A stretch of 23,485 nucleotides of DNA. Origin: a virus. Every line of letters begins with the position of its first letter. The stretch's first letter is position 1. A program made the position numbers and the translations under genes. Location of the stretch: positions 1-23,485 of the IMG/VR virus record IMGVR_UViG_3300020477_001066. The stretch is one strand, 5' to 3'. Under the pieces are notes generated by a model. The model made no database searches and had not been told where the DNA came from. It saw only the letters and a program-made list of their open reading frames with translations. This document shows, in pieces, positions 9,601 to 23,485 of this stretch.

Positions 9601-12600
9601 TTAAAGATTCAATTTTTTTATCTCTTGTTTCTTTTATTACTCTTTCTTTTATTTCATCCCGTTTATCGTGAACATGTTTTTTCCAAAAAGCTTTTGCTTC
9701 TTCTTTTGAATATTTAGTCCATTCATCTAAATCTTCTTTATAATATTCTGCATACATTTGAATTTCCTCTAAAGCCTCATCATATAAATCATCCCATTCA
9801 GCTTCTGTTGCATAAAGAAATCTGTCATCACCATCCCCAGTAGCTATAGTGTATAAGTCTTTTTGCTTTTTAGTATTATACGGAATTGCATCTCTTAACG
9901 CTGTCTGCATAGAATAATCATCAACATCAATATCACCTACTTTTTCTATAGCTTCATCAATTGTTGGTCTAATTCCTATTCCTAATCTTTCCTCACTAAC
10001 TCTTCTCTTTCGTGTTGAACCTAAATCTCCAGTTTTAGGATCGACTCTCTCCAAAAGTCCTTCAGCATAATGTCTACCTCTAAATATCCAAATTCTATCT
10101 CTATCATATTTTTCTTTTTCCCCTTTTAATTCTCTATTTTTACCTCTCCACTTCTTTTCTACTGCTCTAATATCTTTTTCAAAATTAACATAGACATTAC
10201 CAGCTTCAGCATCTACTTTATTTAATTCCTCTATTTTTCTTTTGAGCATATCCAAATTTATCTCTGTGTCTCTTTTTCTTAATTTAACTCCTGCCATTGG
10301 AGTTCTCTTACCACCTCTAAGTAATGTCCCCGGTGTTCCCATAATCTTTGACCATAGATTTTCATCTGGTATTCCTGCATTAACAGCACCTCCTAGTTTT
10401 ACAGACCTACCTTCTGAACGAACAGTCCCTCCATACAATATTCTATGTCTAGCTGATGGACTCATGTAAGGTAACATCTCATATATTTGTCTCCAATAAA
10501 GTTGTCTAAATACTGGAGATCTTGATAAGTTATCTGTTCTGTCCCCCATTAAAGTCTTGAATCCCATTTCAACAAATTGTTTTATCCTAGAAGGGTCATC
10601 TTCAAATAACTCTTTTATTGTTTTTTGATATACTGGTAAATCTTCATACACTTCATCTAAAACATCTGCCATAGAATTTATAGAAGAGTCTTTCTTTTTT
10701 AATCCGGACTTTCTTTTTCCAGTTAAAGTATCCCCATACTTTTTATATTCAAGCCACAGATCATCAATCTTAAAACCATTACCAAATTCACCACCTAGTA
10801 ATATATTTAATAAATCATCATTAGCTTTTCTCTGATTTGTCATAATTGGGAATGGGGATTTAGTTATATCAACATCCTTTGGATTTGTAATATCCATAAG
10901 TTTTTCTAATAAAGCTTTATTTTCATCAAAAACTCCTCCTGCGTGTCCAGTCAATCTAGCTTTAATAGCATCTGCCATAGCAAATCTTCCACCAGCACCT
11001 TGAACAGCTCTTCTATACGAAGGGCCTCCCTTTTGATATACTCTCATTATTGCCTGTACTTCTTCACTCTTACCATTTACCCATTCCTGCAATCTTCTTT
11101 GTTGTCCTGCATCAGAAAGCGCTTCTCCATCAGCACCTCTGAATAAAAACTTGAACAAATCATCTCCGTTTATTCTATTTGCTTCTGTCATCCATTCTTG
11201 TAACCATACTTTCCATTGTTTAGTTCTCTGGCCATTAGCACCAAATCTAGTTATATCTCTTCTATCTATAACCTCAAACGGATGTGGACCCGGCTTTCTT
11301 CTTCCTGTGAACTCTCCTCCAAAAAATTTCATATTATTATTTATACCGGCCATAGCAGAAGCAGCTTCCTTAAACTGTTGTGCATCATCAAATGGATCTC
11401 CTAATAAGTCGTTATAAGTAACTCCTCTTTGACTCCATCTCTTAACTTTTCTAGCATCATCTGTTCCACCTATCCAAGAGGCAAGCCAACTTTGAGGCCT
11501 ACTAAACATTGTGTCAAATCCTCTAGCATACATCCTTATTTGTTCTTCACCTATTACTCTTATTGTCCATGCACCACGAAGCAGAACTAATGGTTTCCAT
11601 GCTTCTTGATAGTATTTATCTGCTGCTAAACTCATAATTCCTTGCTGTGCCGACTTATTTCTATTAGCAAAAACTCCCGGTACTTCTCCCGGTTCTAATC
11701 CCTTAGCAAAAGATTTAGTCATTTTAGCCCGTAATATACCCATAGTGTTATATGCTTTAGCTAGTCCTCCAGCATCTGGTAAAGGTATTGTTCTATTAAT
11801 AAACTCTGTCATAAGTTGAGGACCCGGAGTACCATGTGGTTTCCCATCAATAACTGCTGATTTTAGTTTATTTGTTGGACCCAAAACCTCCTCTCCAGTT
11901 AATTGATTAATCCAGAACTTTCTATATTCTGGGAGTTCATCCTCAAAAAATGATGTGAAGTATTTAGCATCATCTGGATTTACACCACCATTAATAATAA
12001 GATCTTCGTTAGTAACTGCCATCATTTCTTTTGCTACTTCATATAAACCTAGATCATCTCCATCTTCTAAATCAATTGCTTTATTTAATATCTTCGTTTT
12101 ATCACTTTGGTTTATTGTTGTCTGGTCCATCCATAACTTCATTTGATGTAATGTCTGATCCATTTGATCTATATCTAAGAATCTATAAGGTAAATCTGCT
12201 GCGTAGCTAGCAATAATCTGTCCAATTCTACCAGAATCCATAAGACTAGCTTTTATTATTTTTGCAGAACCGAATAGCTTTCCTGTACCTATAAGTTGTT
12301 CTGGAACATTAGGAATCAACGACTCAGTAAGCCCTCCTAATGCTCTACCTAATCCTCTTTTTGTTGGACTTCGTGTACCAAAACCAAAAGGTGTAGAAAT
12401 AGGATTTCCTAAAACTTCATCATTTAATAACTTTCTTACTGCTTTAACTTTATTTTCAACTGGCCTTGTGGAATATTGAATATCTTTTAGTTTTTTTAAC
12501 ATTTCACTATCTGTTACTCCTGTCAAATTCATAAATTCATGTGTGTTTTGGTTAGTAGCAAGCCAGTTTATAAGTTCCTCTGCACCTTCATCATGCTCTA

Positions 12601-13642
12601 AATAATCCTCAACTCTACGACCAGATACCCACTTTTTAATTCCTGTATCATTTAGACCTAGCTGCTTTTTTTGGGCATTTGTCAATTCTTTACTTCCTTT
12701 TTTACCGGGAGTTCCCTTATGAACTTTCTTCATTATATTCTTAACCAACTCTTCAGATGGTTTTAATGTTCTCCTACCTGCAGTTAAAGCTTTAGTACCT
12801 AATAAGAAATAGTTAGCTGGATCAAGAAACATTATTTTCCCTGCATCAATTATTCCAGACATAACATTAAAAGGTCTACTTCCCGGTTCCATAACTAAAT
12901 TAGCTGTAGCTCTTCCTAAAGATATAGGCATAGCTACTTGATTTCCTTGATTGTCTTTAGTTGTTATAGAAAACACACCTGACTCTTCTTGCATCCTTCT
13001 ATCTATATCAGTTATAGGACTTCCTAAATAAGAATTTATATTTTGTACTGCCTTATCTGGATCCATACCCTTTTGAACCATATATTTATATTCTTCATAA
13101 AATTTAGAGTTAGGATTGTTAGGATCAAACTCATCACTATCTGGAATAAATCCCTCTCCTAAATTAACTCTGTTTCCAGATTTTAACTGTCTTAAAGCTT
13201 GCCTTACAGTTGAACTACCAGATTGTGCATAAGCATCTTGAAATGTTAATTGATCTTTATAATCTCCAAATGTTGATGCTATAAAAGAGTTTATTGGTCT
13301 ATCTACCCAACTTCTATAAGCATCTTCTAAACCTAGTAGGCCTAATCTAACTCCTGCTTTTAACCCTCCTCCAAACTTACCTAAAAGACCTTTCTGATTA
13401 TTCTCTACTATTCTTTTAGATACTTCTTGTAATACTTCTGCTTCTGGTTTTACTTGAAGTAAAGTTAATGCTGATATAACATCCGGTGAGAAATTAGGAT
13501 AAGCTTTTGAAATTGCAGAAGCCCTCTGTGAATCATCACGTGTAACAGAATTTCTTACTTGTGCATATTTTTTTTGTCTTGCGTAAATTTCAGCATAAAG
13601 ATCTTGTTCCTCTTTGGGATTATCAAAATAAGCAACTCCCAT
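6659..13642 (-). CDS. Giant putative internal virion / DNA-ejection protein, 2,327 aa
   Basis: This single 7-kb reading frame takes up about 30% of the window. The first 300 residues contain Gly-rich amphipathic stretches (GLLGKFGGGLKAGVRLGLLG near 85-105 and an SGIIDAGKIMFLDPANYFLL stretch near 262). Residues about 1130-1450 are highly charged and helical. Around 1770 there is an aromatic motif, MRAIFPFGNAYKEIVTTW, followed near 1865-1890 by a hydrophobic segment (ALSVVPGVGPMMAIPLAKLI). The size, the amphipathic segments and the neighbours (portal upstream, peptidoglycan hydrolase downstream) resemble the large ejected internal proteins of podoviruses, which form a conduit across the cell envelope. 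I looked for single-subunit RNA polymerase motifs as in N4-type virion polymerases and saw none by eye. The ribosome binding site is weak; the start overlaps the previous stop (TAATG). Confidence 0.7.
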   Translation of the reverse strand: MGVAYFDNPKEEQDLYAEIYARQKKYAQVRNSVTRDDSQRASAISKAYPNFSPDVISALTLLQVKPEAEVLQEVSKRIVENNQKGLLGKFGGGLKAGVRLGLLGLEDAYRSWVDRPINSFIASTFGDYKDQLTFQDAYAQSGSSTVRQALRQLKSGNRVNLGEGFIPDSDEFDPNNPNSKFYEEYKYMVQKGMDPDKAVQNINSYLGSPITDIDRRMQEESGVFSITTKDNQGNQVAMPISLGRATANLVMEPGSRPFNVMSGIIDAGKIMFLDPANYFLLGTKALTAGRRTLKPSEELVKNIMKKVHKGTPGKKGSKELTNAQKKQLGLNDTGIKKWVSGRRVEDYLEHDEGAEELINWLATNQNTHEFMNLTGVTDSEMLKKLKDIQYSTRPVENKVKAVRKLLNDEVLGNPISTPFGFGTRSPTKRGLGRALGGLTESLIPNVPEQLIGTGKLFGSAKIIKASLMDSGRIGQIIASYAADLPYRFLDIDQMDQTLHQMKLWMDQTTINQSDKTKILNKAIDLEDGDDLGLYEVAKEMMAVTNEDLIINGGVNPDDAKYFTSFFEDELPEYRKFWINQLTGEEVLGPTNKLKSAVIDGKPHGTPGPQLMTEFINRTIPLPDAGGLAKAYNTMGILRAKMTKSFAKGLEPGEVPGVFANRNKSAQQGIMSLAADKYYQEAWKPLVLLRGAWTIRVIGEEQIRMYARGFDTMFSRPQSWLASWIGGTDDARKVKRWSQRGVTYNDLLGDPFDDAQQFKEAASAMAGINNNMKFFGGEFTGRRKPGPHPFEVIDRRDITRFGANGQRTKQWKVWLQEWMTEANRINGDDLFKFLFRGADGEALSDAGQQRRLQEWVNGKSEEVQAIMRVYQKGGPSYRRAVQGAGGRFAMADAIKARLTGHAGGVFDENKALLEKLMDITNPKDVDITKSPFPIMTNQRKANDDLLNILLGGEFGNGFKIDDLWLEYKKYGDTLTGKRKSGLKKKDSSINSMADVLDEVYEDLPVYQKTIKELFEDDPSRIKQFVEMGFKTLMGDRTDNLSRSPVFRQLYWRQIYEMLPYMSPSARHRILYGGTVRSEGRSVKLGGAVNAGIPDENLWSKIMGTPGTLLRGGKRTPMAGVKLRKRDTEINLDMLKRKIEELNKVDAEAGNVYVNFEKDIRAVEKKWRGKNRELKGEKEKYDRDRIWIFRGRHYAEGLLERVDPKTGDLGSTRKRRVSEERLGIGIRPTIDEAIEKVGDIDVDDYSMQTALRDAIPYNTKKQKDLYTIATGDGDDRFLYATEAEWDDLYDEALEEIQMYAEYYKEDLDEWTKYSKEEAKAFWKKHVHDKRDEIKERVIKETRDKKIESLRATGRTGYGEKSLRINFDDEIDELRREQARIVKPGTLGLHRLYEGDLKVLQFFPSEAPMEYPDKVFGDIYEFMHLKRWASFRKADFTVGSPSYQSKGSASDMTPYPLGDKLTEALKNLNRNFFKKKKITEIESEAEYVLIRDYILGDEMTMMDHTMSESALRKAIKTARQMRKKTKVASPKIDTVVPNEEFYLLRKQFLDGLEPGDVVEAGPNEWWMEFLEGLRDKGVKPGDDLWETLRDSRNDVTGSWGKLDEIFDLIGGDREALGSFQYNQKFYKRLGENADWTWQNLWDNFAYSGKNKWSEKQIASAKKANQADLDWVEELKGMVSRYREGRLSKVNAIEDKIKARMKVLDETVGEKSEKYQRGRRKYIREREKLYDAASFTEDVASFDQLDTVAKAVALQGVQDLLYDITRDNKFFYNMRAIFPFGNAYKEIVTTWAKLLKENPQMIRRGQVAVNALRKDNDFSPIEGEGFIGEDEVTGESVFYYPVVSELISEAASDVAFGEDRQVQVRFPGYASSLNIALSVVPGVGPMMAIPLAKLIGDSPAFDDFVKFAFPYGLPDVKTSGDLINAAFAPAWMRNAVRAIWGFDSDNPNNEIARVAGNTQIDIYRLLKANGELDDTQQQQIALQQKAKKIGRGITLIKAFSQFIGPTGMNPRYDKIGDPKNNTTVWAMQTLSDRYRELLETPPILPGTNQMAYAPGDNYSATKYFIDEFGFNPIDLVQPKSIVIEPRPVDEKGVEFQRNNPELFESHPYTAQFAIPKGGGGDFSYEAYVRTLVEGKREPLSPDEWLYKRNQSLGQFYMEDKRLESLELFDITRPNQDKARNRYLAMHQIDARDKFPGYDRPIPGLPETTSVELQMKELRTWEKEPQLANTKVGRDVISILSIMDTISKKGFREGLSMEGWRSSRRYIAERKFLRDTIARMVANNDDLYFVAEKVLLPYIEERRDFVEDLFYNPDVFEEYGMYLPNKINVGGA

Positions 13643-14293: not shown

Positions 14294-16049
14294 CTGGACC
14301 TCCTCCCCCTTGTAACAATAGACTTCTTATATCTGGTGGTGGACCTTGAGGAACTTGAGGTTGTCCTTGTTGCATTAATTGGTCCATCATAGCTTGTTCT
14401 GATTCTGGGACTTCTTCTTCTGCAGTATAGAATTTATCTAATACAGTCTGCATGTCATCTGGATTCTTTAATATCTGTACTAATGCCATTGTAGCTTTAG
14501 GATCTCCTTGTGTAGCTTGTACTTTCAATGTCTCAAACAATACTGTCTCTGCTTCTGACTTTGTAATTCTATTATTTATTTTCTGTAGATTTTCTAATCC
14601 ATCCATATTCTCTTGTAATGTTTGCTTATCAATTATCCCTGCTTGTAATAATTGTAAACCAGATACAATTTTAGTTGGTTCATCAAATCCTGCCATAACA
14701 CCATAAACTCTTCTTGTTTCATATTGACCATCTATATCATTTTTAGGGACATAATATTCTGCATAAGCTCTATCTTTGGCATAACCAGATATTGGTTTTC
14801 TTTTACTTCCATTAAGTACTTCATCCATTTCTAATCTTTTAGCATCTACTTCTTCTAGTGCGTTCTTTAATGACAACTGATACTCTCTAACATTCAAATC
14901 AACTGATGACATTAATTCTTGCAATCCTCTTCCTGTAACAAATGAATTAGGAGATTGTGCATCATCAGTAACTGGATAAGAAGAACCTAATCTAAGTTGC
15001 CTCTCTATCCTATCTATTTGTTGAAACATTTGGTAAGGAAGATTATTAACTGGTTTAGCAACTTGACTTCCCGGTGATAGATAGTTAATTGCAAATCTAC
15101 CTCTCTTATAAGCACCAGACTCTAGTTCTCCTACAATATTTGTTTCAGTAAATACTGCATCTTCCATAGCAATAATGGATAAAACATTTATCTTTGCCAT
15201 AGCTGCCATGAGTCCTAACACATGATCATATTGTCCTTGTAATCTATCAAAACTAAATCTCTTTGCTAGTACAAATCTAGGACCACTCTGTAATGGATTA
15301 GGTGTAAAATCTAATATTTGTTTTGTTGTAGGATAATAAACATAGGTTCCCTCTTCGTTGTAATACTCTATTAACTCTTCTCCCTCAGCAGTATTATTTT
15401 CCCAGCTTCTTGCATATTGATCTTTATATAATCCCTGAGACCATCCACCACTATATTCTCCAGTTGTATCTTGTATATCTACTTTTGCATGAGGATATAA
15501 ATTTTTAATAGTCTTTACTGGAACAATTCTAACTAAAGCTAGCTCTGTTGGTTGTTGATCTGGTCCATAGTAACCGGGGAAACAATCAAATGGATCTCTC
15601 AATTCTGCATGAGGATACATATTACCAAATCTATCTTTTTTATTTCTTATAATCCAAACTGAAAAACCATAACCCGGTAGCCATCTAGCAGCTTGTGGAA
15701 GTTGCATATCCATCTTACAACTCTTGTCATAAGCATGAACAATCCTTTCTAGCTTCTCTGATTTATTCTTAGCTCTATCTGAATCTTTATTATTAAATGG
15801 ATCAACTTTAAGATCTGGAACTCTACCTAGCTTCTGTGCTAAGTGTTCCAAACCAGAATCAATCATATTAGGTATTGGTAAATCTTCGTTATAGTTTTCT
15901 GAATTAGAACCTAATAGTGCGGCCACTCCTTGTGAACCTCCATTTAATATATTTCTAATTCTTTTCCTATAATCAAAAGATCCTGTAGATTCATGTAACC
16001 CACGAAGGTCATCAATTTTATGTGCTAACTTGTCAGCTGTATAAGCCAT
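14274..16049 (-). CDS. Portal protein, 591 aa
   Basis: I call this the portal because it directly follows the large terminase, has the usual length (450-700 aa), and has a portal-like composition: a helical N-terminus, a beta-rich stretch with many aromatic and Pro residues (DPFDCFPGYYGPDQQP near 130), a long helical segment near 335-390 and an acidic, Gln/Pro-rich C-terminal tail. Portals form the dodecameric ring through which the DNA is packaged and ejected. I chose the ATG at 16049, which overlaps the terminase stop as TAATG. A GTG at 16061 would add four residues (MGKI), but does not match the junction style of this operon. The gene ends in a GGAGGAGG-rich region that forms the ribosome binding site of the 70-aa gene. 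Confidence 0.75.
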   Translation of the reverse strand: MAYTADKLAHKIDDLRGLHESTGSFDYRKRIRNILNGGSQGVAALLGSNSENYNEDLPIPNMIDSGLEHLAQKLGRVPDLKVDPFNNKDSDRAKNKSEKLERIVHAYDKSCKMDMQLPQAARWLPGYGFSVWIIRNKKDRFGNMYPHAELRDPFDCFPGYYGPDQQPTELALVRIVPVKTIKNLYPHAKVDIQDTTGEYSGGWSQGLYKDQYARSWENNTAEGEELIEYYNEEGTYVYYPTTKQILDFTPNPLQSGPRFVLAKRFSFDRLQGQYDHVLGLMAAMAKINVLSIIAMEDAVFTETNIVGELESGAYKRGRFAINYLSPGSQVAKPVNNLPYQMFQQIDRIERQLRLGSSYPVTDDAQSPNSFVTGRGLQELMSSVDLNVREYQLSLKNALEEVDAKRLEMDEVLNGSKRKPISGYAKDRAYAEYYVPKNDIDGQYETRRVYGVMAGFDEPTKIVSGLQLLQAGIIDKQTLQENMDGLENLQKINNRITKSEAETVLFETLKVQATQGDPKATMALVQILKNPDDMQTVLDKFYTAEEEVPESEQAMMDQLMQQGQPQVPQGPPPDIRSLLLQGGGGPDVPEQL

Positions 16050-17968
16050 TATCTTTCCCACATTCTTTCATCATACGTTGTCATTTTATAATTGCTATAA
16101 CTAGGAGTATAGTCGCTGTCTACTTCTGAAAGTATGATTTTCATAGTTTGTCGTATACGCTTCATAGGAAACCATGATGCCATTACTAAGTCTGTTTTTG
16201 ATGTAGGAGACTTAGTATTTTTACTACTAGCTGCGCTAAAATATATTAACTGACTTCTGTATATATTTACTTTCCTCTGTGTAATTGGTGAGGCCCAAGG
16301 TATATTTATTTTACCCTGTTCAAATAAAGGAACCATTGATGTAACTCCAAATACTGGATCCCATTTATTCTTATAGGTTTGGTGTCCCTCTATCTTTACT
16401 CCATGACCTGCTGCCCAGTTCTTTATATCTTTATCTTGACCAATAGCTTTTTGAAATCCGTTTTCTTCTACTATCCAATGATATAGATTATATTGCTCAT
16501 ACCACTCTTTCATTACCTTATGGGCCTTTGCAATACCTCCTCCTAAATCATTCTTTATATCTACTAACCACATGTCCATAGTCTTTGCATTATATGCCCA
16601 CAAAACTGCTGCTTGGTACCCTGTAGATGCTGGGTCTAATCCAGCTATTAAAGAAGTTCGTGGAGGTATATCTCCTAGTTCTCTTGACCTATCAAGACAT
16701 TTATCTATCATCTCTGCATTAAATAATTCCATACCTTCTGGTACTGCTTTATTCAGATATACCATTTCAAAAATTGCTCTACCCCCTGTAGTCTCAGCTG
16801 CAGACAATTGTTCTAATAACCATTTATGACTTCTCTTACCTTTCCATAACATGTGATCATCTTGATCTTCTGATTCTTGGTCTAAAGGTATTTCTAAATC
16901 ATGCGCACGTTCTACTATTGTCTCCCAAGCTTCATTGTCTAATAGTGAATTATATAAATCATCTGGGTGCTGTCTTGACCCAATAACTACCATACCGGTG
17001 TGTTCCTCTTTTCTTGATTGAAGTGTTGTTGTCCACCAGTTCTTTGTATTCTCTCTAGCACTAGGTTGAACTGTAGAACCATGATCTTCTATGTCATCAG
17101 CTACTATGAGGTCTGCATCTCTTGAAAGAATTTTTCCTCCCTTACCTACAGCTACTAATGTAGGAGATTTGATTCCAGCTACTGTTCTAGTATTAACAGT
17201 AAACTGACCTGTACTCCAAGACTTCCCAGATTTATTCATAGGCCTAAAACCTTCATACCCTGCAAAGTCTTGAATCAACTGTTCATTATTTTCTAAATGA
17301 TCTAATACAGCACCTACTGCATTTTTAGCTATATCTTCATTACCCCCTACCCACATAACTCGTATATTAGGATTTTTACATATCATGTATACACAGAAGT
17401 GCGTTAGTAGGTCTGTCTTGCCGTGCCGGGGGGGTGATAGCACCATTAGTCTCTTACCATGCTTAATAGCTTCTAGGATTGCATGTATCCAACGCTTTTG
17501 AAATTCTGGGGTCTCATACTGCTCTCCTTGTTCTGTAAGGAAATATGTATCTCTAAATAATATAAAATCATCAAGTGCTGCTTTTGCTTCGGGGTTATTT
17601 TCTAATATCTTTTGATTATCTTTCAAAGCTTGGTCTTTCAAGTAAGCTGATAAAGATCTGGTAATAGTAGCTAAACTACATCCTAATATATCAGCTATCT
17701 CTTGTTTAGATTTAGAACCATTCAAAATAGAGTCAAAAAAATTTTTTTTCTCCATAATGGCATAGTATCTCCCTCTTCGTTTCTGTATATTGTGATCTAC
17801 ATCTTTCTCTATATGGTACTCAGATGCTGTTTTTTTTGCTCTGTAAGCCCTTTGTTTAATCCTCCTAGCACATTTATCAGAACAGTACTTCCTTCTACTC
17901 TTGGGTAGTATTTTCGTACAATCATTAGCTAGACAGAACTGTTTTTTTGCTTGGCTTTCTTTCTCCAT
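16049..17968 (-). CDS. terL: Large terminase subunit with N-terminal zinc finger and HTH, 639 aa
   Basis: The packaging motor ATPase/nuclease. The ATPase domain has Walker A SPPRHGKT (178-185, K184) and Walker B LIVADD (287-292). The C-terminal RNase H-like nuclease begins with IAGLDPASTG, with D445 the expected metal ligand. Unusual for TerL, residues 12-33 hold a Cys4 set (C12, C17, C29, C33) followed by a basic stretch, and residues 84-111 read as a helix-turn-helix (KQEIADILGCSLATITRSL). These could give the protein its own DNA-recognition module in place of a separate small subunit, which I do not see in the window. The ATG at 17968 has no clear Shine-Dalgarno upstream. A TATGAT sequence lies 13-18 nt before it, so a very short leader is possible. 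It is the first gene of the leftward late operon. Confidence 0.93.
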   Translation of the reverse strand: MEKESQAKKQFCLANDCTKILPKSRRKYCSDKCARRIKQRAYRAKKTASEYHIEKDVDHNIQKRRGRYYAIMEKKNFFDSILNGSKSKQEIADILGCSLATITRSLSAYLKDQALKDNQKILENNPEAKAALDDFILFRDTYFLTEQGEQYETPEFQKRWIHAILEAIKHGKRLMVLSPPRHGKTDLLTHFCVYMICKNPNIRVMWVGGNEDIAKNAVGAVLDHLENNEQLIQDFAGYEGFRPMNKSGKSWSTGQFTVNTRTVAGIKSPTLVAVGKGGKILSRDADLIVADDIEDHGSTVQPSARENTKNWWTTTLQSRKEEHTGMVVIGSRQHPDDLYNSLLDNEAWETIVERAHDLEIPLDQESEDQDDHMLWKGKRSHKWLLEQLSAAETTGGRAIFEMVYLNKAVPEGMELFNAEMIDKCLDRSRELGDIPPRTSLIAGLDPASTGYQAAVLWAYNAKTMDMWLVDIKNDLGGGIAKAHKVMKEWYEQYNLYHWIVEENGFQKAIGQDKDIKNWAAGHGVKIEGHQTYKNKWDPVFGVTSMVPLFEQGKINIPWASPITQRKVNIYRSQLIYFSAASSKNTKSPTSKTDLVMASWFPMKRIRQTMKIILSEVDSDYTPSYSNYKMTTYDERMWER

Positions 17969-18377
17969 CTGTTATAGTGTATCATACATATATTTAGTTT
18001 GAGATGGTTAAGACTACCTAACATGTGTACAAGTAAGAGTGATCGGGACACAAAAAGTCCGGGATCGGTGGCACGATAAACTAGAAAGACAAACCGGATA
18101 CTCAAGGCACTTGACTTAAACTTTATCAATAAATGGTAAATATTTTGACTCTAGCTGCAGTCATAGCCCGCTTATGCCCATTTGGGTGTAGAAATAGCAC
18201 TCCCTCCTACTACTAAGTAGCTAACTTTTACTGTAGTAAGAGGGCTTGTACTGATCTTATGATAGCAGGACAAGGGACCTTGACTGAAAATTTTAATAAA
18301 ATTTTATGACTTTTTACTAAAACCCTATAAACACTACACATTTAACATACTATATCTTGTATATACTATATATGGTA
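17969..18377. other. Non-coding stretch upstream of terL
   Basis: No ORF here has a credible start and coding character on either strand. Visible items are a short GGAC/GTCC hairpin near 18047-18061, several TTGACT-like sequences (near 18110 and 18280) without convincing -10 partners, a duplicated AAAATTTT near 18287-18305, and an AT-rich run of alternating TATA from 18345. It presumably carries the leader or promoter of the late operon, but I cannot place a promoter with confidence. Confidence 0.5.
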
Positions 18378-18393
18378 TACACTAGATGTGGTA
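18378..18393 (+). repeat. Left copy of 16-nt direct repeat flanking the tmRNA-like RNA
   Basis: TACACTAGATGTGGTA here matches TACACTAGGTGTAGTA at 18503-18518 in 14 of 16 positions, in the same orientation. The pair brackets the structured element at 18405-18497. The left copy overlaps the putative -10 region. Possible roles are protein-binding sites, integrase arm-type sites, or traces of insertion of the element. Confidence 0.6.
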
Positions 18394-18397
18394 TAGT
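18389..18397 (+). promoter_or_regulatory. Extended -10 promoter for the tmRNA-like RNA
   Basis: TGGTATAGT matches the extended -10 form (TGn plus a TATAAT-like hexamer). It ends 7 nt before the first G of the acceptor stem at 18405, which is the normal distance to a transcription start. No good -35 is visible, as is usual for extended -10 promoters. Confidence 0.45.
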
Positions 18398-18404
18398 GTC
18401 TACT

Positions 18405-18497
18405 GGGGATGATAGGTAATATATAGCTAACAAACTAAATAAAGACTACCCTTGATCACACTAGCTATACACTCCGGTTCAATTCCGGACATCTCCA
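18405..18497 (+). ncRNA. tmRNA-like (tRNA-like domain) RNA lacking the usual internal domains
   Basis: The 5' GGGGATG (18405-18411) pairs with the 3' CATCTCC (18490-18496) as a 7-bp acceptor stem with one G-U pair. A perfect T arm follows tRNA rules: TCCGG (18473-18477), loop TTCAATT, CCGGA (18485-18489). There is no regular D stem or anticodon arm with a T33-type loop. Instead TATAGCTA (18422-18429) pairs with TAGCTATA (18462-18469), in the position of helix P2 of tmRNA, after an unpaired D-loop-like segment containing AGG. GGGGxTG ends and a stemless D loop are tmRNA hallmarks, but a normal tmRNA is about 350 nt. The last bases read ACTA where tmRNA has ACCA. Alternatives are a degenerate tRNA or an attachment site copied from a host ssrA gene. 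The fold was judged by eye. Confidence 0.5.
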
Positions 18498-18502
18498 CTA
18501 AG

Positions 18503-18518
18503 TACACTAGGTGTAGTA
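18503..18518 (+). repeat. Right copy of 16-nt direct repeat flanking the tmRNA-like RNA
   Basis: This is the partner of 18378-18393 (14 of 16 identical). This copy also contains the inverted pair TACAC/GTGTA around TAG, so it could form a tiny hairpin just after the RNA. It is not followed by a T run, so it is not an obvious terminator. Confidence 0.6.
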
Positions 18519-18520
18519 AA

Positions 18521-18578
18521 AGATCAATACTTACCAGCATTATTCTGAGGGATACATTCTTATTTCCCCCACACCCTA
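18521..18578 (+). promoter_or_regulatory. Possible divergent copy of the bipartite promoter-like element
   Basis: AGATCAATA (18521) and CACCCTA (18572) resemble the two boxes of the element seen more clearly at 18771, 20512, 20743 and 22324. The spacing is 51 rather than 46-47, and both boxes carry mismatches. The downstream box also lies in a CCCTA/TAGGG hairpin. Weak on its own. Confidence 0.25.
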
Positions 18579-18630
18579 GATTGACATTAGGGGGTTGCTA
18601 AATAACTGCCTTGAGAATTTCCCTACATGT

Positions 18631-18770: not shown

Positions 18771-18823
18771 AGATCATCCAACTGTATCTATTTTAAGCTG
18801 TTGCTATATTCAGAAACACCCGA
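18771..18823 (+). promoter_or_regulatory. Bipartite promoter-like element, copy A
   Basis: AGATCATCC at 18771, CTGTAT at 18782 and TATATT at 18805 (17-nt spacer, sigma70-like), then CACCCGA at 18817. The box-to-box distance is 46 nt. The same order and spacing occur at 20512, 20743 and 22324. The last box falls where the transcript would start. There is no clear plus-strand gene downstream, so a non-coding transcript ending near 19020 would be expected. Confidence 0.5.
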
Positions 18824-18883
18824 CCCAAATCAAGAGATAAGACCAGAAAGAATAAGCAATATATTAAATGGAGTACGGACCGG

Positions 18884-18946
18884 AGATCATCGAAGGGCCT
18901 CTATTTCTATAACTTTATATATAAAAAACTTACCCCACACACACGA
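18884..18946 (+). promoter_or_regulatory. Bipartite promoter-like element, copy B
   Basis: AGATCATCG here is preceded by CGG, giving a 12-nt perfect match to copy C. CACACGA follows at 18940, 56 nt from the first box, i.e. about ten bases (one helical turn) more than in the other copies. TATATA lies between them near 18917. The shared CTATTT after the box also matches copy A. Two hairpins lie just downstream. Confidence 0.45.
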
Positions 18947-18954
18947 CCAAAAGA

Positions 18955-18980
18955 AAGAGAGACCCGTAGGCCTCTCTCTC
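18955..18980 (-). terminator. Terminator of the leftward 20436-19010 operon
   Basis: GAGAGA and TCTCTC arms with an inner CC/GG pair around CGTA form a hairpin. Read on the minus strand it is followed by TTTCTTTT, as expected for a factor-independent terminator after the 136-aa gene. On the plus strand it may be part of a short structured RNA. Confidence 0.55.
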
Positions 18981-18984
18981 CCGT

Positions 18985-19020
18985 ACTAACTGAAAGGGTT
19001 CGCAGTTAGTTATTTAATTA
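18985..19020 (+). terminator. Perfect 8-bp hairpin with T-rich tail
   Basis: ACTAACTG (18985-18992) pairs perfectly with CAGTTAGT (19003-19010) around a 10-nt loop and is followed by TATTTAATT. It fits a plus-strand terminator for transcripts starting at elements A or B. It touches the stop codon of the leftward gene that ends at 19010. Confidence 0.5.
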
Positions 19021-19420
19021 CATGGCTTTTATTTGTTTCTATTTCCTTGATTTGCAATCCAACATTGTAGGAATTAACAACATCCTGATTAAAGGAGTTA
19101 CCCTTTGCCTTTGATAGTTCTACAAACTGGGCTTTAGTATATAGATACTGTTCAAAGTCTCCCGCCCAATTGTATATGTAGCCTTTAGGTCGTGGAAGGC
19201 CTGCCCTCTCTAATAGGTTTAGGTCCTCCTCTTGTCCATCTAATTCGTAATCCTTTGGAAAGTATTTTCTAACACTATCCCAACCGATTAACTCCGACCA
19301 GAACTTGTCATTTTGATTATCTCCTACAATAGTTACGGAAAAACGAGTTCCCTTCGTATTAGTAGGGCCATGATATTTAATCTTCACTACTAGATAGCCT
19401 TGTAGTTCTAAATCGTTCAT
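19010..19420 (-). CDS. Hypothetical protein, 136 aa
   Basis: Not recognised. The N-terminal 60 residues look beta-rich (LQGYLVVKIKYHG, TRFSVTIVG), and the remainder mixes loops and helices (FEQYLYTKAQFVELSKAKG). There is no membrane segment, signal or Cys cluster. The start has GGAGG closely upstream (encoded in the end of the 22-aa ORF), and the two share a TAATG. It is last in a leftward operon of small genes and is followed by a terminator hairpin. Confidence 0.8.
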   Translation of the reverse strand: MNDLELQGYLVVKIKYHGPTNTKGTRFSVTIVGDNQNDKFWSELIGWDSVRKYFPKDYELDGQEEDLNLLERAGLPRPKGYIYNWAGDFEQYLYTKAQFVELSKAKGNSFNQDVVNSYNVGLQIKEIETNKSHVIK

Positions 19421-19488
19421 TATTTCACCTCCTTACTGTCATTGTATTTCTCTTCTTTAGTTCTTAACCGGTTCCACTTCTTACGCAT
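19420..19488 (-). CDS. 22-aa basic micro-ORF between two genes
   Basis: ATG at 19488 with GGGGGA a few bases upstream. It encodes a 22-residue charged peptide beginning MRKKWNRLRTKEE and ends TAATG, overlapping the ATG of the 136-aa gene. Its start overlaps the end of the 57-aa gene. The fit at both ends and the AAGGAGG inside its 3' end argue that it is translated, perhaps mainly to couple translation of the next gene. It could also be chance. Confidence 0.45.
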   Translation of the reverse strand: MRKKWNRLRTKEEKYNDSKEVK

Positions 19489-19517
19489 ATTCCCCCTTTG
19501 TAGCCGGTTCCACTTCT
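19468..19517 (-). repeat. 14-nt direct repeat across the 57-aa/22-aa gene junction
   Basis: CCGGTTCCACTTCT occurs at 19468-19481 and 19504-19517, 36 nt apart on the plus strand. On the coding strand one copy encodes TEVEP of the 57-aa protein and the other KKWNR of the 22-aa ORF, so the copies are read in different frames. This suggests a local duplication. Confidence 0.6.
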
Positions 19518-19654
19518 GTAAGTTTATAATCAGGGAGTTCATCCCATGAATAACTAACCCAAGCATCAACCACTTCATGCCGTAGTTTTCCCTTCCCATC
19601 CCAGTCTATATATAGAATAGGAGGGCTTTCAAATTCAACTTTATACCTAGCCAT
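19481..19654 (-). CDS. Hypothetical small protein, 57 aa
   Basis: ATG at 19654 is preceded by GAGGAGGAATAACAAT, whose GGAGG comes from the Glu tail codons of the 74-aa gene. The protein starts MARYKVEFESPPILYIDWDG and looks like one small beta domain with several Trp and Tyr residues. No family is recognised. It is the second-to-last sizeable gene of the leftward operon. Confidence 0.65.
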   Translation of the reverse strand: MARYKVEFESPPILYIDWDGKGKLRHEVVDAWVSYSWDELPDYKLTEVEPATKGEYA

Positions 19655-19658
19655 ATTG

Positions 19659-19883
19659 TTATTCCTCCTCTAGTTCAATCATGGCTTCCGCAACCATCGG
19701 ACTACAAGTATTACAGAAGAAGCCCCAACGTGTTAAATACATTGTGTTCGGCAGTTGATAGCCTTCATCCTCCGTTATCTTTTCCCCGAAGTTATCACAA
19801 TCAAGCGGGGCTTTACAATGCCTGCATAAAATAGAACCCTCTTTGAACCATTTATACGATACCTTCGGCTTAAATGTAGGCAT
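19659..19883 (-). CDS. Small zinc-ribbon protein, 74 aa
   Basis: Four Cys in two pairs, CRHC (20-23) and CNTC (57-60), separated by 33 residues, fit a zinc ribbon. The C-terminus is a helix ending in the acidic tail ELEEE, whose GAGGAGGAA codons form the ribosome binding site of the next gene. The start overlaps the upstream stop as TAATG. Zinc ribbons in small phage proteins often bind nucleic acid or a host polymerase, but no specific role can be read here. Confidence 0.75.
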   Translation of the reverse strand: MPTFKPKVSYKWFKEGSILCRHCKAPLDCDNFGEKITEDEGYQLPNTMYLTRWGFFCNTCSPMVAEAMIELEEE

Positions 19884-20407
19884 TATGAGACCACCTTAAA
19901 ACTCTCGGCAGTTGTTGGAAGTCTCCCCAAGTCCAAAGACCTATCCAAAAGTTTAACCATGTCCTTACGTGCCGGCTTCAACTCGTTGTACTGCCCCCAT
20001 TCTGTTAAGACTTCAACGTCTCTTAGTTCGTTAGGATGATATGATCGTGAAAGGTCTATTCCTAATATAGTAAACCTTCTAACAATCTCACCCCCTCGCC
20101 CTCTCAGTTCCGAATAATAGTCATATTCTGGGGTCTCGTATCTCTCATAGTTCCCGTATCTATCTTGCATATACTCATTAGATAAAATGAACATAACACA
20201 ATGGGCATTATGGAACATAAAACCCATATTTGCAGACCCGCTCTGAATGGTGTCGGATTTTTTCAGGTCAACCCTAAAGGCCAACCCGACATCATACATT
20301 CTTGCCCGCTTATATAGGGGATTTGTCGGATGAAACCATCTAAGGTTTAACCACGTAACCCCCTTCTTACTAGCCCTGTTTTTGAAAGTCTTATAAAATT
20401 CAATCAT
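19883..20407 (-). CDS. Hypothetical protein, 174 aa
   Basis: I use the ATG at 20407 because GGAGG lies seven bases upstream and it overlaps the stop of a nine-codon leader ORF. An in-frame ATG at 20494 would add 29 unlikely residues. The protein is basic and aromatic-rich (WLNLRWFHPTNPLYKRARMYDVGLAF), with a Tyr-rich middle (YERYETPEYDYYSEL) and a helical C-terminus. I do not recognise the family. First full-length gene of a leftward operon. Confidence 0.75.
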   Translation of the reverse strand: MIEFYKTFKNRASKKGVTWLNLRWFHPTNPLYKRARMYDVGLAFRVDLKKSDTIQSGSANMGFMFHNAHCVMFILSNEYMQDRYGNYERYETPEYDYYSELRGRGGEIVRRFTILGIDLSRSYHPNELRDVEVLTEWGQYNELKPARKDMVKLLDRSLDLGRLPTTAESFKVVS

Positions 20408-20436
20408 TATAAAACCTCCGCATCTATTCGCATCAT
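20407..20436 (-). CDS. Nine-codon leader ORF
   Basis: AAGGAGGT lies eight bases before an ATG at 20436. The frame encodes MMRIDAEVL and stops as TAATG, sharing a base with the ATG of the 174-aa gene. The GGAGG that serves the next gene lies within the mini-ORF. A strong ribosome binding site on such a short frame suggests a leader peptide or a coupling device rather than a functional protein. Confidence 0.5.
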   Translation of the reverse strand: MMRIDAEVL

Positions 20437-20511
20437 TTTTTTGTACCTCCTTATATGTACCCTCTAAGTTTGGCACAATTAGGAGGAATTGCAAGGATTA
20501 AACAGGCCCGG

Positions 20512-20564
20512 AGATCATCGGATTGCATATATATATTTTTTTATATATATATTGAAGCACCCGA
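20512..20564 (+). promoter_or_regulatory. Bipartite promoter-like element, copy C
   Basis: AGATCATCG at 20512 (in a 12-nt perfect match to copy B), TTGCAT at 20523, a run of TATA ending in TATATT at 20548, and CACCCGA at 20558. The box distance is 46 nt, as in copy A. It lies 26 nt upstream of the ATG of the plus-strand 50-aa zinc-ribbon gene, which supports promoter function. Confidence 0.55.
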
Positions 20565-20589
20565 AAAACTCTTTCCCTATTTAATAAGT

Positions 20590-20742
20590 ATGAGATGTAA
20601 ACAATGTAATTCAAAGAATGTATTTGAGTTAGTTAAACAAAATATAAATAATAAAAAGATAATCGGAAAATTATATTCAAATATATATTGGTGTGCTAAA
20701 TGTCAGGGAGACAGCAAAGGATTAATAGAAACATATATATAA
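20590..20742 (+). CDS. Zinc-ribbon protein, 50 aa
   Basis: The protein has CKQC (3-6) and CAKC (35-38), a classic two-knuckle zinc ribbon, with a Lys/Asn-rich middle. The start at 20590 puts the first CxxC at the N-terminus, typical of this class. The frame is open further upstream, but that part overlaps promoter element C and reads as low-complexity. There is no Shine-Dalgarno before the ATG. It is a single plus-strand gene between two leftward operons, with element C before it and element D directly after its stop. A nucleic-acid-binding or polymerase-modifying role is possible but not shown. Confidence 0.65.
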   Translation: MRCKQCNSKNVFELVKQNINNKKIIGKLYSNIYWCAKCQGDSKGLIETYI

Positions 20743-20796
20743 AGATCTTTTATATAAATATATCTTTGTATTTCAGGGGTATCTAAACGCACCCGA
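20743..20796 (+). promoter_or_regulatory. Bipartite promoter-like element, copy D (weaker first box)
   Basis: AGATCTTTT begins right after the stop of the 50-aa gene, TATCTA is at 20780 and CACCCGA at 20790 (47 nt between boxes). The downstream part AACGCACCCGACA matches copy E (AACGCACACGACA) with one difference. It leads directly into a strong hairpin, so a short RNA of about 55 nt is the predicted product. Confidence 0.45.
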
Positions 20797-20802
20797 CACC
20801 AA

Positions 20803-20842
20803 AGAGAAACCCCCCAGTAGCGGAAACTGAGGGGCTTTCTCT
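20803..20842. terminator. Strong hairpin, probable terminator of the leftward 22190-20879 operon
   Basis: AGAGAAA (20803-20809) pairs with TTTCTCT (20836-20842), continued by CCCC/GGGG and AGT/ACT inside, with a 7-nt loop. The T run outside is short on both strands. It lies 37 nt past the stop of the leftward 128-aa gene and just after element D, so it may serve both strands or be the body of a small RNA. Confidence 0.5.
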
Positions 20843-20878
20843 GTCTATATACAAGGAGAGTATATATGTTAGGTAACT

Positions 20879-21265
20879 TTAATAAACTTCCTCCTCTGCG
20901 TAGCCGTATATATGACTGTAATCTAATTCAAGTACCGGCTTGCTTCCATCTAAAGATATGTAAACTCCGGCTTCTGAACCACCATCCTTTACAAGATAAA
21001 CAGAGAAGTTTCCATCTCCCCCGCTAGAAACAACTACCCCAGAACATACGTTTCCGTGATTATCCTCTAAAGATTTTTCGGAAACTCTAGTGTAAAAGTT
21101 CTTTTCTTTTATAGTCGGGTCATCCAAGTATTCTTTTGTCTCTACTTGGATGTGTAGGTTCCCATCTCCTTGCTTATAGTTATCTATGTAGCACGGGTCA
21201 GTAATAAATAACTGTCCGCTATCTACTGGCGCACTACCTATATCTATTAATTTTATTTCACTCAC
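20879..21265 (-). CDS. Small protein with DSGQLFITDPCYI motif, 128 aa
   Basis: The N-terminus carries VDSGQLFITDPCYID, similar to a motif found in small, poorly characterised phage and bacterial proteins (a DUF4241-like pattern, from memory). The rest is a beta-rich, Gly/Ser/Asp-containing domain (GVVVSSGGDGNFSVYLV, GVYISLDG). The C-terminus is acidic (YAEEEVY). There is no signal or membrane segment. A well-placed GGAGG in the preceding gene's 3' end serves its ATG, and the two overlap by 8 nt. Last gene of its operon. Confidence 0.75.
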   Translation of the reverse strand: MSEIKLIDIGSAPVDSGQLFITDPCYIDNYKQGDGNLHIQVETKEYLDDPTIKEKNFYTRVSEKSLEDNHGNVCSGVVVSSGGDGNFSVYLVKDGGSEAGVYISLDGSKPVLELDYSHIYGYAEEEVY

Positions 21266-21419
21266 TTGTAACCTCCTCCTTAATTACATTAACGATAGTT
21301 GTATCTTCTATATATTCTTTTGTATCTCCTTGAACAGCTAGTTCCCTAGCTTCTTGTTCATTGGTAGCCGAAACAGTTGTGAATATTCTTCTCTCCATCT
21401 CTACTGTATATCTTTCCAC
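21258..21419 (-). CDS. Small protein with GTG start, 53 aa
   Basis: I choose the GTG at 21419: it overlaps the upstream stop as TAGTG and has GGAGG four bases before it. An ATG at 21446 would overlap the previous gene by 28 nt. The protein (MERYTVEMERRIFTTVSATN, then EQEARELAVQGD) has the beta-beta-alpha look of tiny phage proteins whose helix reads 'EQEAxELA'. The 50-aa protein at 23261 has a similar start (YEYKVEVRF, then YEDAENFV), so the two may be distant relatives. Function is unknown. Confidence 0.65.
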   Translation of the reverse strand: MERYTVEMERRIFTTVSATNEQEARELAVQGDTKEYIEDTTIVNVIKEEVTSE

Positions 21420-21709
21420 TATTCCTCCTCCATTATCTTTGCCCACTCATTGACATCTCTATTGCCCATGAGTTCAAGTGCTACATCTAATCCTTTACGC
21501 AGGTACTCTCTATCTGAATGTTCAACACTTACCCCGAATCCTAAATCATTTAACCAACTTTCACACTCGCTAATTAATGAATTTGTTATCTCGTTTTCTT
21601 TTGGGTTCTCTCCATCTTGAAAAGAATCAAAATGTGATTCAAAGAAGTTGCTATCAATATCATCGCTATCTACATTTACATTTATTATCAATGCTGTTTT
21701 GTATTTCAT
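21419..21709 (-). CDS. Hypothetical acidic protein, 96 aa
   Basis: Starts MKYKTALIINVNVDSDDID, a beta strand followed by an acidic loop, and then becomes mainly helical. Ends KIMEEE, where the GAGGAGGAA codons form the ribosome binding site of the GTG-started gene downstream. The start overlaps the previous gene as ATGA. No family is recognised. The first 20 residues resemble other small phage proteins that start with a 'K-hydrophobic strand-D/E' pattern, but this is weak. Confidence 0.75.
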   Translation of the reverse strand: MKYKTALIINVNVDSDDIDSNFFESHFDSFQDGENPKENEITNSLISECESWLNDLGFGVSVEHSDREYLRKGLDVALELMGNRDVNEWAKIMEEE

Positions 21710-22062
21710 TTAGACCTCCTCTGGATAACTGTAAGAGCCGAAGCTATTACCCACTCATAGACATCAGACATATTACATACACTCGCATATCTCTTATCTT
21801 CCTTTACGAGATTAGATAATTTCTCTGATGTTTCATCTTGTGGATGTTGGCTACAAAACCATCCATCCTTTTCTTCATCAAGACCCTCATTGTAATCATA
21901 TATTACTCCCTTAACGATAGAAATATAAACTGTCTCATCATAAGGGAGTCTATATTCATCCGGCATACAGTTAATTATATCTCTTAGATATAGACCATGA
22001 GCTAAGTCCTTTATGGAGAAAGACTCTTTTGCTACTAATCTTTCCTTTTCTTCTATACTCAT
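21706..22062 (-). CDS. Hypothetical protein, 118 aa
   Basis: Acidic N-terminus (MSIEEKERLVAKESF), a middle with DEYRLPYDETVYISIVKGV, and a C-terminal hydrophobic helix (VYEWVIASALTVIQRRSK) that is too short and mixed to be a clear membrane anchor. Two Cys (C33 and one near 70) do not form a zinc motif. ATGA overlaps link it to both neighbours. No family is recognised. Confidence 0.75.
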   Translation of the reverse strand: MSIEEKERLVAKESFSIKDLAHGLYLRDIINCMPDEYRLPYDETVYISIVKGVIYDYNEGLDEEKDGWFCSQHPQDETSEKLSNLVKEDKRYASVCNMSDVYEWVIASALTVIQRRSK

Positions 22063-22190
22063 TTCTGCACCTCATCAAGTCCACCGATAATGTTCTTCAA
22101 CATATCTTTTAGGTTTGTGGATTTAGAAGTAACATCTTCTGCTACTTCCTCCGCTTCTCTTATCTTATTTAGAAGTTCGGATAGTTTCAT
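22059..22190 (-). CDS. Hypothetical helical protein, 43 aa
   Basis: ATG at 22190 with AGGAGGT five bases upstream, one of the best ribosome binding sites in the window. The protein (MKLSELLNKIREAEEVAEDV and onward) is one long amphipathic helix with regularly spaced Leu/Ile/Val, suggesting a coiled coil. Its stop overlaps the 118-aa gene's ATG as ATGA. First gene of the leftward operon, and it lies 31 nt from a predicted -10 hexamer. Confidence 0.7.
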   Translation of the reverse strand: MKLSELLNKIREAEEVAEDVTSKSTNLKDMLKNIIGGLDEVQK

Positions 22191-22220
22191 AACGTACCTC
22201 CTATATAGTTATCTAAGTAT

Positions 22221-22250
22221 TCTATACGATAAATATATATTTGTATACAA
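22221..22250 (-). promoter_or_regulatory. Sigma70-like promoter of the leftward 22190-20879 operon
   Basis: On the minus strand TTGTAT (22250-22245), an 18-nt spacer and TATAGA (22226-22221) precede the AGGAGG and ATG of the 43-aa gene. The -35 is half of the palindrome TTGTATACAA, whose other half can serve the plus strand. Confidence 0.45.
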
Positions 22251-22270
22251 CTAAATATTTATTTGATAAA
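22241..22270 (+). promoter_or_regulatory. Possible divergent plus-strand promoter
   Basis: TTGTAT (22241-22246), an 18-nt spacer and GATAAA (22265-22270) mirror the leftward promoter around the palindrome TTGTATACAA at 22241-22250. A GGAGG and a short ORF follow at 22283. Confidence 0.35.
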
Positions 22271-22291
22271 CTTTAATTATACGGAGGTTAA

Positions 22292-22357
22292 ATGATACAG
22301 GGCATACAAATACAAAACAGAAAAGATCATGTATCCTTGTTTATTATTGTCCCTTAG
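22292..22357 (+). CDS. 21-codon micro-ORF ahead of the rightward operon
   Basis: GGAGG lies four bases before the ATG at 22292. The frame encodes MIQGIQIQNRKDHVSLFIIVP and stops at TAG, immediately before the TATAAA of element E. Support is the ribosome binding site only. It may be a leader peptide that is translated through element E. No function can be given. Confidence 0.3.
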   Translation: MIQGIQIQNRKDHVSLFIIVP

Positions 22358-22377
22358 TATAAACTTAACGCACACGA
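22324..22377 (+). promoter_or_regulatory. Bipartite promoter-like element, copy E
   Basis: AGATCATGT at 22324, TTGTTT at 22337, TATAAA at 22358 and CACACGA at 22371 (47 nt between boxes). It sits 23 nt before the ATG of the first gene of the rightward operon, with AGGAGG between, so this copy is the best placed to be a functional promoter. Confidence 0.55.
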
Positions 22378-22399: not shown

Positions 22400-22600
22400 A
22401 TGAGTATGAAAACATACACATTAGAAGAGCTAAATAAAAAATATGAAAATCGTAAAGTTGATTGGTATATCAATATTGGACAAGTAGCTTCTTTCAAATG
22501 GAAGAAGCGAGGGGTTCCCGAATACCAGATACTTGGAGTATCTGGGATGATTCGTGAAAACTTTGAAAACTTGGAGATGATTAACAGGAGGTTAGGATGA
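22400..22600 (+). CDS. Hypothetical small protein, 66 aa
   Basis: ATG at 22400 with AGGAGG seven bases before it. The protein starts MSMKTYTLEELNKKYENRKV, then has a probable beta segment (WYINIGQVASFKW) and a C-terminal helix. It is basic and contains no Cys. The stop overlaps the next ATG (ATGA). First gene of the rightward operon controlled by element E. No family is recognised. Confidence 0.75.
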   Translation: MSMKTYTLEELNKKYENRKVDWYINIGQVASFKWKKRGVPEYQILGVSGMIRENFENLEMINRRLG

Positions 22601-23261: not shown

Positions 23262-23413
23262 TGGCATACGAATACAAAGTTGAGGTTCGTTTTATGGGAG
23301 AGAACTATGAGGATGCAGAGAATTTTGTTCACTCTATGAGTGGTAGTGATTGGATGGAACATTTAGAAACTACATCAGGATTAGATGTAGAAGAAACAAG
23401 AGAGGAGGAATAA
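23261..23413 (+). CDS. Hypothetical small protein, 50 aa
   Basis: Starts MAYEYKVEVRFMGENYEDAE, a beta strand followed by a helix, and ends in the acidic tail TREEE (GAGGAGGAA), the ribosome binding site of the next gene. It resembles the start of the 53-aa protein on the other side of the divergent region. TAATG overlaps on both sides. Confidence 0.7.
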   Translation: MAYEYKVEVRFMGENYEDAENFVHSMSGSDWMEHLETTSGLDVEETREEE

Positions 23414-23485
23414 TGCCACATATAGAAGACATAATGATAGAAGAGTTGGAGGGAGTGTTTAGATATGATGAACATACTGAAGATG
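23413..23485 (+). CDS. Start of a further small gene, cut by the right edge
   Basis: ATG at 23413 shares a base with the previous stop (TAATG) and has GAGGAGGAA just upstream. Only 24 codons are visible (MPHIEDIMIEELEGVFRYDE and onward), acidic in composition. Nothing more can be said. Confidence 0.6.
   Translation, partial: MPHIEDIMIEELEGVFRYDEHTED

Follow-up and report, generated by a model that had tools for sequence, protein, structure and literature searches.

A two-box DNA element of constant orientation, conserved in one clade of marine phages, is a candidate promoter class

The window analyzed here is an entire virus record (IMG/VR IMGVR_UViG_3300020477_001066; 23,485 bases, 35% G+C) that encodes a terminase large subunit as well as a portal-like protein and a lysozyme-like domain. 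Its intergenic DNA carries five copies of a bipartite element, in which a first box built on GATC[A/T] is followed at near-fixed distance by a second box. In relatives of this virus the element takes the form GATCW then CGCACGACACA, the second box of the window lineage being two bases longer (CGCAC[A/C]CGAC). The two-part element is real and conserved in its clade, a small group of marine phages, and its sequence, spacing, orientation, clade restriction and placement before plus-strand genes are established. The reading that we favor, with moderate confidence and from sequence comparison, is that it may be a clade-specific promoter that combines an upstream GATC activator box with a conserved start-site box.

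The pattern AGATCW-N38..52-CACMCGA matches five times in the window, always on the plus strand, and never in 100 dinucleotide shuffles. These are the five two-box copies described in the initial annotation, and their positions, strand and spacings (measured from box 1 start to box 2 start, Table 1) proved correct, including that of copy B, which is one helical turn longer. A doubtful sixth copy proposed at 18521 was rejected, as the sequence there reads CACACCC and not CACMCGA. Searched alone over both strands of the record, CACMCGA has exactly five matches, copies A to E, against a shuffle mean of 0.9. The box 1 word AGATCATC occurs in seven exact copies, four of them within structural genes, and the first boxes of copies D (AGATCTTT) and E (AGATCATG) are not full matches to it. 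Given that the box 1 word is common by itself, the signal is carried by box 2 and by the fixed pairing.

In relatives of the virus the pair likewise recurs at near-fixed spacing. The earlier description of the element as phage-specific is thus borne out, in that it recurs in sister genomes and is limited to one clade and one genome region. Terminase relatives were found in at least 600 stretches of viral contigs, of which the best 80 were used; among phage records there are 423 terminase matches, every one below 60% identity. Eight element-bearing relatives (G001-G008) share approximately 82% terminase identity with the window. Two of them, G001 (41.7 kb) and G007 (41.5 kb), repeat their first 40 bases near the end, and with these overlapping ends both genomes look complete. 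A further contig, L113, is very near the window's virus and extends beyond the window end. Genome contigs with terminase relatives fall in metagenome-assembled genomes labelled Rhodobacteraceae, Gammaproteobacteria, Actinomycetota and Flavobacteriaceae, labels that point to no single host.

In the eight contigs G001-G008, many of them near-duplicates and not counted as independent, GATC-N36..48-CRCGAC matches 32 times and a reversed control pattern not at all. Of the 22 contigs covered by this search, the remaining 14 hold two matches (both in G014) versus 17 control matches. Since same-species contigs repeat each other, box 2 instances were clustered for a test that starts from box 2: 35 instances fell into 17 clusters, 13 of which have GATC 38-44 nt upstream. 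Of the remaining four, three are second tandem copies, whose GATC lies at a distance of 64-69 nt, and one is an unrelated match in L023. The CGCACGAC lineages have a distance of 38-41 from GATC to the second box, and the three window-lineage instances have one of 44, copy B being a +10 variant; two contigs (L005, L006) hold mixed element forms. No copies of the element were found in the relatives of about 70% terminase identity that were examined. A possible counterpart there was discarded: several of these relatives keep a related box, CGYTCACCGTC, at position A (positions are defined below), not repeated as a set. In two contigs with 73% RusA identity (L176, L177) the box 2 patterns have no match, and reading L176 by eye revealed none. 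Pattern scans of viral contigs (37 and 75 stretches) yield, outside the clade, mostly single matches in GC-richer contigs, which look like chance.

Alignment of 23 representative sites reveals two conserved blocks, GATC[A/T] and box 2. Because the presence of both boxes was the criterion for selecting these sites, the columns of both are conserved partly by construction; the ACA that follows CGAC and the test starting from box 2 are free of this circularity. The next most conserved column, an A at +18 from GATC (83%), may be chance. The spacer sequence is not conserved between sites, and the spacer is the most AT-rich stretch, with an A+T fraction of 0.72-0.76 from 40 to 11 nt before CGAC and 0.47-0.55 thereafter. 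We also weighed, by eye, an archaeal-type TATA box and discarded it, since the A-type copies have none and the spacer is AT-rich regardless.

Table 1. Copies of the two-box element, tandem second boxes and genes discussed in the text
Feature	Sequence	Position	Strand	Details
Copy A	window	18771..18823	+	box 1 AGATCATC 18771-18778; box 2 CACCCGA 18817-18823; spacing 46
Copy B	window	18884..18946	+	box 1 AGATCATC 18884-18891; box 2 CACACGA 18940-18946; spacing 56
Copy C	window	20512..20564	+	box 1 AGATCATC; box 2 CACCCGA from 20558; spacing 46
Copy D	window	20743..20796	+	box 1 AGATCTTT; box 2 CACCCGA from 20790; spacing 47
Copy E	window	22324..22377	+	box 1 AGATCATG; box 2 CACACGA from 22371; spacing 47
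Tandem box 2 copies	L113	about 920-990	-	25-27 nt periods, unrelated sequence between
Tandem box 2 copies	G007	23400-23427	+	25-27 nt periods, unrelated sequence between
Tandem box 2 copies	L141	about 7031-6950	-	25-27 nt periods, unrelated sequence between
Gene 22400	window	22400..22600	+	66 aa; first gene of plus-strand operon downstream of copy E; no Pfam match
Candidate partner protein	window	19883-20407	-	174 aa; co-occurs with element
Terminase large subunit	window	16049-17968
2327-aa virion-region protein	window	6659-13642	-

Every copy is directed away from the terminase gene, regardless of the direction of neighboring genes. When the loci are oriented by terminase, all matches fall on the strand opposite to it, two unrelated Polyangium contigs (L111, L112) having been left out of the site list. 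The copies occupy positions that recur between genomes: A and B fall between the terminase and first minus-strand operons, D follows a minus-strand terminator-like hairpin, E stands at the start of a plus-strand operon, F lies within that operon, H is found between a RusA-like gene and the adjacent gene, often in tandem, and I lies inside a minus-strand gene. Copy B is followed by a hairpin that reads by eye as a minus-strand terminator, and L005 has a copy at the equivalent place. A minus-strand terminator-like hairpin (20837-20807) also follows copy D, whose equivalent place is occupied in G001, G007, G006, L005 and L006. In the rest of the G001 and G007 genomes, beyond the early region, a single further CGCACGA occurs, on the minus strand of G007 and without GATC.

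The placement of the E and F copies is the strongest argument for a promoter. At the intergenic copies of these two types (window and L113, G001, G007, L141) box 2 lies 18-25 nt before a start codon, beside the Shine-Dalgarno sequence, and the first plus-strand gene differs between lineages. Copy E of the window adjoins the AGGAGG and ATG of gene 22400, and the equivalent place is filled in G001, G007, G006 and, with GATCC, L141. In L113 an additional F-type copy lies past the window's end together with a tandem box 2 array, and an entire 60-nt gap within the plus-strand operon consists of the site. Copies C and E had both been placed just upstream of plus-strand genes; E precedes gene 22400, and C precedes a 50-aa open reading frame (20590-20742) without a Shine-Dalgarno sequence by eye.

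Read as a promoter class, the element would drive transcription toward the plus strand, away from terminase. Box 2 would span the discriminator and the first transcribed bases, the AT-rich spacer would provide a weak, degenerate -10, and box 1, about 43-50 bp upstream, would be an activator site replacing the -35 contact. Class II activators stand in for the -35 contact in this manner. The E- and F-type copies would then start short-leader mRNAs of small plus-strand genes, and from the copies at A, B, D, H and I short or antisense RNAs would arise that run against the minus-strand operons. We infer that transcription starts at the element, that an activator occupies box 1 and that the polymerase is that of the host. 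The initial annotation had likewise proposed an upstream activator site combined with a conserved initially transcribed sequence; this serves as our leading hypothesis rather than as a result.

Several observations weigh against a promoter. The strongest is that most copies precede no gene in their own direction, those at A, B, D, H and I facing minus-strand genes. The earlier claim that all copies are intergenic holds for the window but not for the clade, as G007 and L141 each carry one copy within a plus-strand reading frame and the I-type copies lie in a minus-strand frame. Box 2 copies without a box 1 of their own occur in tandem at H. A -10-like hexamer 4-7 nt before box 2 can be recognized by eye in copies A, C, D and E, as first described, but is absent from B, and its enrichment over 26 clade sites is not significant (best z 1.87). 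In the window, no plus-strand sigma-70 -35/-10 pair overlaps copies A-E. The word promoter is plausible, on the position of box 2 at E and F, the AT-rich spacer and the helical-turn variant of copy B, and is opposed by the lack of a significant -10 and of an overlapping sigma-70 pair in the window, by the protein searches described next and by the majority of copies, which have no gene in their own direction.

Searches for a protein that might read the element returned one correlated candidate. No RNA polymerase was recognized among the scanned proteins, many genes being without annotation. PF00940 matched in 0 of 6 records, and its control matched nowhere either. Sigma-70 region 2 (PF04542) was also found in 0 of 6 records, its control matching in 10 of 14 genomes, and a phage sigma factor regulon was rejected on this result. 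The 2327-aa protein of the virion region was tried as a phage-encoded RNA polymerase and set aside: neither Pfam nor PDB yielded a match, and its one PHROG match is at chance level (E 0.16). Giant open reading frames of approximately 1450-2160 aa lie near terminase in 51 fetched loci, and none of these loci contains a D.DGD-like motif.

The correlated candidate is the 174-aa protein of Table 1. Relatives of it occur in seven of nine element-bearing sequences and in none of 16 relatives without the element; in the two misses (L141, L154) the fetched sequence stops short of that place. A scan of all viral contigs found the family at seven loci, all in the clade, and phage records contain no member. 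These data suggest a possible partner of the element, co-occurrence in a single clade being weak evidence because any clade-specific gene would behave in the same way. With its predicted structure (mean pLDDT 78) as query, Foldseek returned nothing at E <= 0.001 from either PDB or BFVD, and the best VIA Z was 3.8; this lack of a fold match is a further point against the promoter reading. Its sequence finds nothing better than E 0.16 among PDB sequences.

The constant orientation is explained better by a polar protein-binding site than by a promoter. A protein bound to boxes 1 and 2 would halt one-direction traffic across the early region, blocking elongation in the manner of a stoperator or replication in the manner of Ter, a possibility that we judge unlikely. 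Orientation is constant relative to the genome and not to the genes, and copies lie at operon boundaries and within minus-strand genes. Where the long minus-strand operon ends, box 2 stands in two or three copies, in the periodic arrays of Table 1. In the minus-strand coding copy of G007, moreover, a serine is encoded by TCG, which accounts for 1.3% of serine codons there; this usage is no more than suggestive of a constraint at the DNA level. Such a block leaves unexplained why box 2 stands directly before the Shine-Dalgarno sequence of plus-strand genes in several lineages, and no repressor or Tus-like protein was recognized among the scanned proteins. A genome-oriented bipartite element independent of gene direction (GATC[A/T] plus CGCACGACACA) might polarize polymerase or fork traffic in the early region of a streamlined marine phage, together with a clade-specific cognate protein of unknown fold, and to this form we likewise assign a low probability.

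Still less probable are replication start sites, at which a short plus-strand transcript from box 2 would prime DNA synthesis and thereby impose a single direction. The one orientation, the clustering in one region of the two genomes with overlapping ends and the AT-rich spacer would all suit such sites, as would a gene content that includes an exonuclease and a single-strand annealing protein and, among the scanned proteins, no replicative polymerase. It would be unusual, however, for a stretch of a few kb to hold five to seven starts, and the GC skew of the window tracks gene strand and shows nothing. We consider it quite improbable that the element acts in RNA, where a long plus-strand transcript over the region would carry it as a leader, a processing site or a binding site. 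Its orientation on one strand and the closeness of box 2 to ribosome sites at E and F would fit, but box 2 offers no pairing partner for GATC, the spacer varies between sites and copies occur where no plus-strand gene is known. Finally, a chance repeat of two common words in AT-rich DNA, to which the frequency of box 1 words alone might point, is refuted by the zero count in shuffles and by near-fixed spacing kept across diverged genomes.

We found no report of the element in the open PubMed Central (PMC) literature. The middle promoters of phage T4, of the class II type, have an activator site in place of the -35 and use host polymerase; unlike them, the element has no recognizable -10 or known activator, and its conserved box reaches into the presumed transcript start. 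The closest analogue is the SAS/ESAS system of Cluster K mycobacteriophages, described as cluster-specific short asymmetric repeats, nearly all in one orientation, beside translation starts (PMC3203893, PMC11373665). The 13-bp SAS usually leaves 3-9 bp to the start codon; ESAS is a longer upstream partner (46-47 bp) that is thought to hold a promoter, with imperfect 17-bp inverted repeats and SigA-like -35/-10 hexamers spaced 17-18 bp, the function of the system not being proven (PMC3203893, PMC11373665). The element shares the nearly uniform orientation and the restriction to one phage cluster. In contrast to SAS as described there, at E and F 18-25 nt separate the CGAC of its box 2 from the start codon, and the copies at A, B, D, H and I are not before plus-strand starts. 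In contrast to ESAS, no SigA-like pair overlaps window copies A-E on the plus strand. Among the 25 longest of 79 inverted pairs none lies inside a window copy, but AT-rich arms overlap copy C; across sites, only GATC[A/T] is conserved upstream. Given these distances and the lack of a -35/-10 pair, we do not file the element as a member of the system. The stoperators of mycobacteriophage L5 are asymmetric 13-mer single sites in short intergenic spaces, oriented with transcription (PMC9283540). Sites of this type are bound by a phage repressor, and no repressor was recognized among the proteins scanned here. As with these, orientation matters in the asymmetric element; it differs from them in being bipartite with near-fixed spacing and in lying always on the plus strand though neighboring genes run both ways.

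Upstream of terminase the window contains a tRNA-like structured RNA (18405-18498, plus strand), with counterparts at the equivalent place in relatives. Of 71 regions examined upstream of terminase, 55 contain it; among the 16 that do not, two are short contigs (L010, L063) and 14 have 51-54% terminase identity. In the acceptor and T-arm, 276 of 276 cells are paired (100%), with 35 changed on both sides and a covariation of 0.370 versus 0.153 when shuffled. Both tested helices carry compensatory changes, and inspection by eye shows coordinated variation in a third stem. In 21 of 23 sequences the acceptor has G-U as its third pair; a G-U pair at this place is an alanine identity mark. ARAGORN makes no call here, and Rfam returns only a sub-threshold permuted tmRNA match; the RNA resembles the tRNA-like domain of tmRNA minus the message part. 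A model of the RNA has matches in 14 of 32 sources searched, the 32 including contigs without the region and distant relatives. In many relatives a conserved TATACT-like box (TATAGT in the window, about 18345-18404, plus strand) precedes the first G of the RNA by 6-8 nt and is perhaps its own promoter. A conserved noncoding stretch (18499-18603, plus strand) follows the RNA and is, by eye, partly complementary to its D-loop region in several relatives. Separately, minus-strand genes of G001 (33401-35407) and G007 (29671-31494) encode proteins that combine long runs of threonine with very acidic repeats.

If the element is a genome-oriented site, it would represent an uncommon way of organizing a small phage genome. 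If it is instead a promoter, as we favor, it would give a sequence handle on the expression program of an uncultured group of marine phages and would exemplify specificity centered on the start site without a recognized phage polymerase. The co-occurring 174-aa protein makes the question of a partner testable.

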